NCBI GenBank assembly: GCA_017546725.1
Contig: JAFYRX010000048.1
Location: 1 to 44,928 of the forward strand
Length of the DNA stretch: 44,928 nucleotides
Reading direction: 5' to 3'
Source: Alistipes sp.
Lineage (GTDB): Bacteria > Bacteroidota > Bacteroidia > Bacteroidales > Rikenellaceae
Shown: piece by piece, positions 39,091 through 40,964 of the stretch
How positions within the stretch are numbered: the stretch's first letter is position 1
How the letters are laid out: each line of letters opens with the position of its first letter
Position numbers and translations under genes: made by a program
The notes under the pieces: model-generated
What the model was told of the DNA's origin: nothing
What the model saw: only the letters and a program-made list of their open reading frames with translations
Database searches by the model: none

Positions 39091-39115
39091 CCTTTGCCCG
39101 ATAGCAAATAGGCAG

Positions 39116-39151
39116 AAAAATCGTTTGGCTTTTTGTCGAACGATTTTTTTT
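39116..39151 (+). terminator. Terminator after the GlsB-like gene, overlapping the next promoter
   Basis: AAAAATCGTT (39116-39125) pairs with AACGATTTTT (39139-39148), followed by more T residues to 39151. Its loop contains the -33 TTTG (39132-39135) of the next promoter. Confidence 0.7.
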
Positions 39152-39162
39152 GCTTAACTTTG
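39132..39162 (+). promoter_or_regulatory. Consensus promoter of the structured RNA / fimbrillin locus
   Basis: TTTG at 39132-39135 and TAACTTTG at 39155-39162, 19 bp apart, match the Bacteroidetes consensus fully. Transcription should start near 39168, about 240 nt before the next protein start. Confidence 0.78.
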
Positions 39163-39167
39163 TCTTG

Positions 39168-39390
39168 CAACTGGCAAAAATCCGTTGTAATGTAACATAT
39201 TATTAATTAGCGTTTGCTATTTGTTCCAAGAACTCTGAAACGTAGGAAATTTCAAAAGTGCAAATCGGAACAGATTATGCGAATGCCCGCTTGTGTGGGC
39301 ATTCTTGTCTGTTTGTACCGGTTTTCCTACGACCGCAGAGTTGGGCAAGTTTGTTCACACTTTGTGTTCGTAGGTGGAGTGGGTAGCAGT
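39168..39390 (+). ncRNA. Long structured RNA, 6S/Bacteroidales-1-like or a 5' leader
   Basis: This fills most of the 319-bp stretch (39091-39409) without a protein gene. Nested stems are visible. The outer pair is AACTCTG (39231-39237) with CAGAGTT (39336-39342). CGTAGGAAA (39241-39249) pairs with TTTCCTACG (39323-39331). AACAGA (39269-39274) pairs with TCTGTT (39308-39313), extended by CGG/CCG. The terminal hairpin is GAATGCCCGC with GTGGGCATTC around TTGT. A 16-nt one-sided internal loop (39250-39265) interrupts the rod. Such a rod with a bubble resembles 6S RNA. Bacteroidetes 6S-type RNAs are known to sit behind this promoter type, but I cannot match the family by eye. The ends are approximate; no clear terminator separates it from the downstream gene. 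Confidence 0.55.
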
Positions 39391-39409
39391 CGCATAAAAC
39401 ACTAACAAA

Positions 39410-40906
39410 ATGAAACGCTTAATTAAAATTTTGGCGGTATCAACACTTGGTGTGTTGATGATTGGTTGCTCTAAAGATTCATCAGAAGGGCAGATTAGTT
39501 CTACAAATTACGAGTTGAAACTCCGAGGAGACATCAAGGCTCCCACATCGGGAACTCGTGTAAATGCAAACGGCTTTGAGGCCAACGACAAAGTAGGAGT
39601 CTATGTATCATCTACAGGCTCACTCGCATCACAAGGCAACACACTCGACAATGCAGCCTACACCTACTCAAACGGTAATCTTAACGCATCAGAGGGTAGC
39701 GAGGTTTATTGGGATTCAAAGGATGCCCTTTTATCTGTTTATGCCTATTATCCGTATGTCGCAAATGTTGCGAACAACTCTGCATACGAATTCTCGGTAG
39801 AGACTAATCAATCAACTGATGTTAATTTCTACAATAGCGATTTTATCACAGCACAAGCAGTAAATCTTGCACCGCAAGAGACTCCCGTTTCACTTACTTT
39901 CACTCACTCATTGAGCAAAGTCTTGGTGTCGTTCGTAGCAGGCGAAGGCATTACTGCGAGCGAGTTGGCCGCAGCAGAAAAGACCTTTACCATAGGAGGG
40001 TTAGCAACAAGTGGAACTATTAATCTTGCAACAGGCGTAGCAACTGCTGGAACAACAACAGCTACTATTACTCCGCTTGAAAGCAACGGAACTGACTATG
40101 CCGCCATTATCTATCCTCAAGATGGTGCTGTTTCATTTAATTTAGAGTTAGACGGCGAGGTATTCTCTTACACAACTAATATAGATTTTGAGGCTGGTTA
40201 TCAGTATAAATTTAATCTGACTATCAACACTTGGAACTCTCCCGAGATGACATTAACCACTACATCTATCGACTCTTGGGATGATGGAGATGACCATTCG
40301 GGAACAATGTCTAATACTATCTCATTCCCCGATGCTACACTAAAATCAGTAATTTTGAACTCATACTTGTACACACGACACGAAAACGGTGCCGTAGGTG
40401 AACAAACCGAAACACTAATTGATGCAAATGGTGACGGCGAGATTTCTTATGATGAAGCAAAAGCTGTATATGTTTTAGTTCTACAATCAAGTTCTATATC
40501 AAATTTATCAGGACTTGAATATTTTACTAATCTTGATTATCTCGTCATTACAGGGTCTGCTATGGCATCTATTGATTTGTCAAGTTGTACTTCTCTAATC
40601 CAATTCGATTTTCACAGTAATAGCGGGACTACATCATTAAAACTTTCAAATAATCCGAACCTAAAACGCATTGGATGTGGAAGTAATAGTAATCTAAAAA
40701 CATTGGATATATCAGGGGCAACATCGTTAGAGGACCTAATGTGTAGTGGCAATGCGATAGAAGTTTTAGATGTGTCTAACAACTTGTCGTTGAGTAGTGT
40801 CAGCATATCAGGCGAACAATCGCTTCAAACATTGTATGTTCATAGTTCACAGAATACAGAAGGTTGGAGACTTCCCAATGGAGTAACCCCGACGATAAAA
40901 AACTGA
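39410..40906 (+). CDS. Fimbrillin-like lipoprotein with EF-hand-like motif and leucine-rich repeats
   Basis: 498 aa. The lipobox is LMIGC (C20). Residues about 30-300 resemble fimbrillin-family domains: YELKLRGDIKAPTSGTRVN, YWDSKDALLSVYAYYPY, VSLTFTHSLSKVLVSF and TTTSIDSWDDGD. Then DANGDGEISYDEA (338-350) is an EF-hand/dockerin-like calcium loop. The C-terminal 140 residues are irregular leucine-rich repeats (ISNLSGLEYFTNLDYL, LKTLDISGATSLEDL, IEVLDVSNNLSLSSV). The C-terminal third looks AT-richer than the neighbours. It is a probable surface adhesin or pilus-related protein. The 240-nt untranslated region upstream holds a structured RNA. Confidence 0.8.
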   Translation: MKRLIKILAVSTLGVLMIGCSKDSSEGQISSTNYELKLRGDIKAPTSGTRVNANGFEANDKVGVYVSSTGSLASQGNTLDNAAYTYSNGNLNASEGSEVYWDSKDALLSVYAYYPYVANVANNSAYEFSVETNQSTDVNFYNSDFITAQAVNLAPQETPVSLTFTHSLSKVLVSFVAGEGITASELAAAEKTFTIGGLATSGTINLATGVATAGTTTATITPLESNGTDYAAIIYPQDGAVSFNLELDGEVFSYTTNIDFEAGYQYKFNLTINTWNSPEMTLTTTSIDSWDDGDDHSGTMSNTISFPDATLKSVILNSYLYTRHENGAVGEQTETLIDANGDGEISYDEAKAVYVLVLQSSSISNLSGLEYFTNLDYLVITGSAMASIDLSSCTSLIQFDFHSNSGTTSLKLSNNPNLKRIGCGSNSNLKTLDISGATSLEDLMCSGNAIEVLDVSNNLSLSSVSISGEQSLQTLYVHSSQNTEGWRLPNGVTPTIKN

Positions 40907-40933
40907 TTAATTAGTGATTTTTAGGCGCAAAAG

Positions 40934-40964
40934 TTTGTTAGTGAAAATAAATTGCTTACCTTTG
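40934..40964 (+). promoter_or_regulatory. Consensus promoter of rpmE2
   Basis: TTTG at 40934-40937 and TACCTTTG at 40957-40964, spaced by 19 bp, match the consensus. The predicted start is about 35 nt before the ATG. Confidence 0.8.

Follow-up and report, generated by a model that had tools for sequence, protein, structure and literature searches.

The window that we analysed is a 44,928-nucleotide stretch of an Alistipes genome, and our subject lies towards its 3' end, just ahead of a fimbrillin-like lipoprotein gene (Table 1). The downstream protein belongs with the fimbrillin-like proteins, as it scores 187.3 bits against PF13149 (curated cut-off 27); LRR models score under their cut-offs on its C-terminal part. 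The leader and the fimbrillin gene together take up roughly 1.8-1.9 kb (within 39091-40945) and are flanked by genes for a Transgly_assoc protein and for ribosomal protein L31.

An earlier note on this DNA had described a consensus promoter and, behind it, a strongly structured RNA with no protein gene before the fimbrillin gene. This description holds. The promoter-like TAACTTTG is present and has the form TAnnTTTG, which is the -7 promoter consensus of the Bacteroidetes. No open reading frame (ORF) of 80 or more amino acids (our threshold) occurs in 39091-39409. The minimum free energy (MFE) of 39166-39409 is -82.7 kcal/mol (z = -5.18), and 0 of 200 shuffles were as good; for 39220-39360 the MFE is -52.3 (z = -5.11 versus shuffles). 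The nested stems are where they were said to be: AACTCTG/CAGAGTT (helix P1), CGTAGGAAA/TTTCCTACG (strands A and B), AACAGA/TCTGTT, and a 10-bp terminal hairpin at 39281-39304. The one-sided bubble is there too, but it spans 14 nt in the MFE fold of 39220-39360 rather than the 16 nt claimed. Similarly, the rod that had been likened to an open-promoter mimic does exist, but as one of two competing states. Beyond these stems, a 5' block (39210-39227), the segment before the U-rich stretch (39343-39360), and a second CGTAGG (39369-39374) are complementary to other parts of the RNA and give it alternative pairings.

Table 1. Features of the leader and its surroundings, with positions in the window
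Feature	Position	Strand	Basis or remark
Transgly_assoc gene, upstream of the terminator			PF04226
Intrinsic-terminator-like hairpin and T-run	39119..39151	+	3' of the Transgly_assoc gene, stops just 5' of the leader promoter; by eye
Promoter -7 element TAACTTTG, Bacteroidetes-type TAnnTTTG	39155..39162	+	Sequence; TAnnTTTG is enriched upstream of family copies
Micro-ORF ATG TAA (start, then stop directly), 5' of strand 1	39190..39195	+	Sequence
AT-rich block ACATATTATTAAT	39195..39207	+	Precedes strand 1 in many copies, by eye
Strand 1: hairpin UAGC-GUUU-GCUA and UUUGUUCC	39208..39227	+	Complementary to strand 2
Helix P1, 5' arm (AACTCTG)	39231..39237	+	Covariation
Strand A (CGUAGGAAA)	39241..39249	+	Partner B; covariation
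Strand 2: 5' arm of the central hairpin (GGAACAG...GCGAAUGCCCGC)	39267..39290	+	Pairing tests, covariation
Strand 3: 3' arm of the central hairpin (GUGUGGGCAUUCUUGUC)	39293..39309	+	Partner is strand 2 or strand 4
Strand B (UUUCCUACG)	39323..39331	+	Partner is A or C; covariation
Helix P1, 3' arm (CAGAGTT)	39336..39342	+	Covariation
Strand 4 (GGGCAAGUUUGUUCACAC), adjoins the U-rich stretch	39343..39360	+	Alternative partner of strand 3
U-rich stretch UUUGUGUU, interrupted in the window copy	39361..39368	+	Family median of the longest run is 6
Strand C (UUCGUAGG), repeats part of A	39367..39374	+	Alternative partner of B
Start-codon-proximal block GGUAGCAGUCGCAUAAAACACUAACAAA	39382..39409	+	Similar block at the equivalent place in other copies, by eye
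Fimbrillin-like lipoprotein gene (Mfa_like_1), LRR-like C-terminal part	39410..40906	+	PF13149, E 6e-55

Relatives of this RNA are widespread. A blastn search of 61 genomes found a relative that is 76% identical, from another family of the order, 5' of an N-6 methylase gene, and a wider search found matches in 21 of 393 genomes of the order (E 0.001, own genome included). The pattern TAGCGTTTGCTATTTRTTC occurs in at least 116 stretches of public genome contigs; by their titles, the listed loci are mostly from Bacteroidales or families therein, and many are from rumen and gut. (In this pattern-selected set the 5' block is fixed by the search pattern itself, and some loci, such as L035 and L070, were drawn from two collections.) We aligned 53 copies as a seed and built the covariance model R1 from them. 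R1 matches 112 of the 116 listed pattern loci, of which 52 are in the seed and several are cut at the end of the locus. At E 0.001 it also finds copies in 25 of 41 genomes; across the order it reaches 38 of 129 genomes at E 1e-5, and across the phylum 15 of 247 at E 1e-6, with the window's own genome included in all three counts. Of those 15 genomes, 12 are from the same class but another order and 2 are from elsewhere in the phylum. The window's genome has three copies (C59, C27, and C18).

Some genomes and contigs have unusual arrangements. G052 has 26 copies, many of which lie no more than a few hundred bases from a contig end (by eye), as if these loci were repeated or variable between strains. 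In L004, the 5' block alone (1501-1536 and about 1938-1975) precedes tandem DUF1016-like genes, which we named by eye, and a full element (L213) lies further along the contig. A viral contig contains the 19-base pattern (L158:2559-2577), and its likeness to the element, judged by eye, covers roughly the first 90 nt; R1 does not match this contig at E 0.001. A blastn search of plasmid and phage collections with one copy of the element found no match.

The helices covary strongly among these homologues, which is a check that the earlier note had proposed. In the 53-copy alignment, P1 and A:B are paired in 92-95% of cells, and 12 of their 14 pairs show double changes. The covariation score of the whole structure in this alignment is 0.416, as compared to 0.208 for shuffled alignments and at most 0.136 if the structure is slid. 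A set of 44 R1 matches, 43 from outside the seed, scores 0.590 versus 0.197; in this set double changes occur in 45 of 52 pairs, and P1 is 98.8% paired with all six of its pairs doubly changed; this alignment was fitted to R1 and so leans towards the model. No Rfam model matches anywhere in the window at its gathering score, and none matches the element itself in 40 other loci. The structure is real, and it is part of a widespread RNA family without any matching Rfam model.

The copies also share a promoter, a U-run, and a regular distance to the next gene. Of 199 copies, 127 have a TAnnTTTG in the 120 nt before them, as compared to 18 ± 4 in shuffles and 28 on the reverse strand. A U-run sets in 0-4 nt beyond the last hairpin in 184 of 201 copies, versus 24 and 6 at control offsets. 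In the window, the U-rich stretch UUUGUGUU is interrupted, so termination there may be poor. If we search 1000 nt for the first ORF of at least 100 amino acids, its median start is 229 nt after the start of strand 1; the start lies at 180-260 nt for 81 of 115 copies, and 4 copies have no such ORF. (An earlier tally of 108 elements, from 93 of 98 matches and 15 of 16 in L142-L157, admitted only starts at 175-340 nt; under this rule 21 of the 108 had no ORF start, and we repeated the measurement with a range of 0-1000 nt.) Judged by comparing the copies, this is a promoter-driven leader in which strand 4 is usually followed by a U-run and the start of an accessory gene lies about 229 nt from the start of strand 1. 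The earlier note had offered two alternatives, a long regulatory leader of the fimbrillin gene or a 6S-like RNA. The covariation and the regular ORF distance support the first of these; the second is not supported. We are nearly certain that the family is a cis-acting leader RNA.

The genes behind the leader are diverse. In the pattern-selected set, a DNA methyltransferase (MTase) motif is present in 43 of 87 downstream proteins but in just 2 of 88 upstream neighbours (Fisher p = 4e-14, which is optimistic given the copies' shared ancestry, as all of our p values are). This count is motif-based and misses MTase genes that are cut at locus ends, and 88 of 98 upstream neighbours entered the comparison. 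By Pfam, the 87 downstream proteins include N6_Mtase (18), Eco57I (18), N6_N4_Mtase (16), MmeI_Mtase (13), EcoRI_methylase (6), HSDR_N_2 (5), MethyltransfD12 (4), and C-5 methylase (3), with overlapping counts. These methylase and restriction-modification (R-M) families are absent among the best 25 of 133 Pfam families for the 88 upstream neighbours, where the commonest family is DUF1016, with 4. PADLOC agrees that the downstream genes are of the R-M type, and it matches PDC-S02 models in 4 of the upstream set. L002 and L018, which are from two families, share the leader and a methylase gene, whereas the 90 nt upstream that we compared are mostly different.

In the wider set the picture is different: 45 of 67 downstream proteins are signal-bearing or lipoprotein-like by a crude rule, versus 18 of 76 upstream neighbours, and just 2 of 67 have the methyltransferase motif. 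Secreted proteins are not a rule for the whole family, as 17 of 87 downstream proteins in the pattern-selected, R-M-rich set have a signal-like or lipobox-like start versus 27 of 88 upstream. As for the other copies in the window's own genome, the C18 copy (L170) also precedes a fimbrillin gene (PF13149, 217.5 bits), and the copy in L169 precedes the gene for a small protein that starts like a lipoprotein and matches nothing in Pfam. L250 and L255, from two families of another order, have look-alike small proteins after the leader (by eye).

We asked which strands of the leader pair with each other by ranking each copy's own partner among the partners from other copies (131 copies; a mean rank of 0.5 is expected by chance). 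The mean ranks were 0.189 for 1:2, 0.123 for 2:3, and 0.183 for 3:4, while 1:3 (0.485), 1:4 (0.491), and 2:4 (0.497) were at chance. That 1:2, 2:3, and 3:4 are selected together and the others are not is the pattern predicted for an attenuator in which 2:3 competes with 1:2 plus 3:4. Similar copies were removed before these ranks, the ranks for strand C, the counts of 3:4 and local hairpins, the count of regions with micro-ORFs, and the ORF distances; they were not fully removed before the promoter, U-run, MTase-motif, Fisher, and ATG-stop counts.

Other tests point the same way. Complementarity between strands 3 and 4 is present in 124 of 132 copies, versus 45 with shuffled strands; both parts of this pairing lie on a single diagonal, and 12 of its 15 pairs show double changes. 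The hairpin part of strand 1 has at least 7 contiguous pairs with strand 2 in 106 of 132 copies, versus 21. In the UUURUUC part of 1:2, double changes occur in 2 of 7 pairs, and the R and its partner change together (GC in 19 and AU in 32 of 53 copies). We had also considered a local hairpin just before the U-run as the conserved terminator. Of 132 copies, only 60 have it (12.6 if the arms are shuffled), and in the wide set it is paired in 56.7% of cells; we replaced it with 3:4.

Nearest-neighbour energies complicate this picture. Across 129 copies, the median is -60.3 kcal/mol for the rod versus -48.7 if 3:4, whose hairpin has a long loop, is forced, and the rod is favoured by a median of 11.7 kcal/mol. 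For the window copy the values are -57.3 and -51.3, a difference of 6.0 kcal/mol. Because the modelled energies favour the rod, the terminator state would need co-transcriptional timing (kinetics) or a factor.

Our preferred reading, to which we give a probability of roughly 0.68, is that positions 39208-39376 hold one copy of an attenuator leader that acts in cis, has spread through the Bacteroidetes, and works by competition among strands 1-4. If strand 1 pairs with strand 2, then strand 3 would be free to pair with strand 4, and transcription would stop. If strand 1 is occupied or folds on itself, then the long 2:3 rod would form together with P1 and A:B, there would be no terminator, and the gene would be expressed. 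After read-through, strand C could take B, which might tune translation.

What might the leader sense? One candidate is a ribosome that translates a micro-ORF, only a few codons long, just 5' of strand 1. ATGs between the promoter and strand 1 are depleted (155 versus about 230 in shuffles), and 90 of these 155 are closed by a stop within 2 codons, versus 21% in shuffles. There is no excess of start codons followed directly by a stop, as in the window (17 of 155, p = 0.11). Among 24 copies that we fetched from the window's genus, 17 have GCCTATG, and all 17 of these stop after one to four further codons. The micro-ORFs end 5' of strand 1. They are present in 85 of 196 upstream regions (58 ± 6 in shuffles) and absent from the other 111, so we do not consider a micro-ORF to be a universal part of the leader, and we keep ribosome sensing via micro-ORFs only as a hint.

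The arrangement resembles that of trp-type transcription attenuators, which have strands 1-4. As in those attenuators, 1:2 plus 3:4 compete with 2:3, these pairings are selected, and a terminator arm is followed by a U-run (which is interrupted in the window copy). Unlike those attenuators, the leader lacks a leader peptide overlapping strand 1 in most copies: of 132 copies, 6 have an ATG ORF that begins in the 75 nt upstream and runs into strand 1 (33 when GTG and TTG also count as starts), and the window has just ATG-TAA. Also, one RNA is common to unrelated genes, and it has the extra helices P1 and A:B and a fifth strand, C.

Two other systems are similar by description. The tetQ leader of Bacteroides, which belong to the same order as the window's organism, is an attenuating leader with a very short leader peptide (reportedly of 3 codons), but it serves a single resistance gene. 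The pil1 attenuator of Streptococcus gallolyticus (PMC3894217) also links a leader peptide to attenuation, in this case of a pilus operon, but it has phase-variable repeats and one simple terminator. Two Rfam families, DUF805b and DUF805 (RF02914 and RF03081), are cis-regulatory motifs as well. Neither matches in the window. DUF805b does match about 17-25 nt after the end of the leader model in three loci (L024:1605-1641, L029:1314-1349, and L126:1829-1864), and DUF805 matches further on in L024 (1733-1797). DUF805b differs from our element in that it spans only the start-codon-proximal part of these three copies; it may be a 3' module of some of these leaders. Among titles and the beginnings of abstracts, we found no description of this RNA or of an R-M leader RNA in this phylum. 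PMC8040213 names thousands of candidate RNAs, so this RNA might have been predicted before without being named.

The same strands could be controlled in other ways. A protein such as a NusG paralogue of the UpxY type, or another RNA-binding protein, might bind strand 1 and cause read-through. UpxY proteins occur in this phylum, where accessory and surface genes have this leader in common, and the hairpin of strand 1 could plausibly be bound. On the other hand, many genomes that have the leader have just one or two copies of it, and we think that control by a protein is unlikely.

Alternatively, control could be mainly translational, via pairing of B-P1' with C and folding near the start codon, with the U-run being incidental. 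B-P1' pairs with C at ranks of 0.333 and 0.340, while unpredicted pairs range from 0.41 to 0.56, so strand C appears to pair with B-P1' somewhat better than chance, a modest effect. The regular distance to the start codon and the interrupted U-run of the window copy would also fit. And a review lists the tetQ leader of CTnDOT as a translational attenuator (PMC5418344, citing Wang et al. 2005). Nevertheless, the U-run directly 3' of strand 4 in most copies argues for termination in most of the family, and we doubt that translational control is the main mechanism. For the window copy itself, the stop may be weak, and strand C may be the more important point of control.

It is also possible, although we consider it quite improbable, that the same expression platform is controlled by a metabolite such as S-adenosylmethionine or a related compound. 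A riboswitch of this kind would make sense of the excess of MTase genes downstream in one subfamily and of the compact conserved 5' block. But copies from other clades precede genes for secreted or lipoprotein-like proteins with hardly any MTase motifs, the conservation of the 5' block is largely explained by 1:2 pairing, and neither the T-box nor the known riboswitches of Rfam match at gathering score in the window or in 40 other loci.

The element might instead act as DNA. Two congeneric genomes (G014 and G010) lack the leader and the fimbrillin gene at this place: their Transgly_assoc gene is followed by the gene for L31, with another small gene in between in G014. (In G016 these genes are also neighbours, but in the opposite orientation, so this is not an empty site.) The comparison indicates that the leader and the fimbrillin gene came or went together. 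This absence as a unit from between the same neighbours, and the tandem copies on the same strand within a few kilobases in L179, L182, and L206, could suggest a recombination site or a cassette end that moves the adjacent gene. We considered an integron-like or other recombination site because of this insert and the sporadic occurrence of the element, and we rejected it: R1 finds a single copy in the window and none at the other end of the insert, and there is no target duplication (by eye). Furthermore, the covarying pairs, the promoter, and the U-run are all in the sense of an RNA. That the element acts as DNA is very unlikely.

Equally, although the promoter, the long rod (which recalls Bacteroidales-1 and other 6S RNAs), and a possible stop some 160 nt beyond the start of strand 1 could yield a free RNA, there is very little chance that this is a 6S-like or other trans-acting small RNA, as it is a leader with competing strands, occurs in several copies per genome (three in its own), and is regularly spaced ahead of diverse genes rather than free standing. 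The earlier note had also proposed an Infernal search with the models for Bacteroidales-1 and other 6S RNAs. None of these matches the window at gathering score, and no 6S model is among the weak Rfam matches in the window. The Bacteroidales-1 model (RF01693) has no matches in the window's genome (85% complete); it matches 2 of 41 genomes, one of them above the cut-off, and neither is the window's.

Returning to the attenuator, how R-M systems can be switched without killing their host is a long-standing question; controller proteins, promoters, and antisense RNAs are the solutions known. With a conserved structured leader before MTase genes from several families that are unrelated to each other, an RNA-based answer can be put to the test. 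We can imagine, although it is more of a speculation than an expectation, a phylum-wide attenuator that is gained and lost along with the gene and that brings R-M systems (in some clades) or surface proteins (in others) under a common sensor, with the ribosome on the micro-ORF reporting the state of translation and deciding if the defence or surface gene is to be transcribed. If so, the state that is sensed could be, for instance, that of a host shut off by a phage or that of a cell just entered. The phylum concerned dominates the gut and the rumen, and many of its unannotated accessory genes gain a common regulator to look for.
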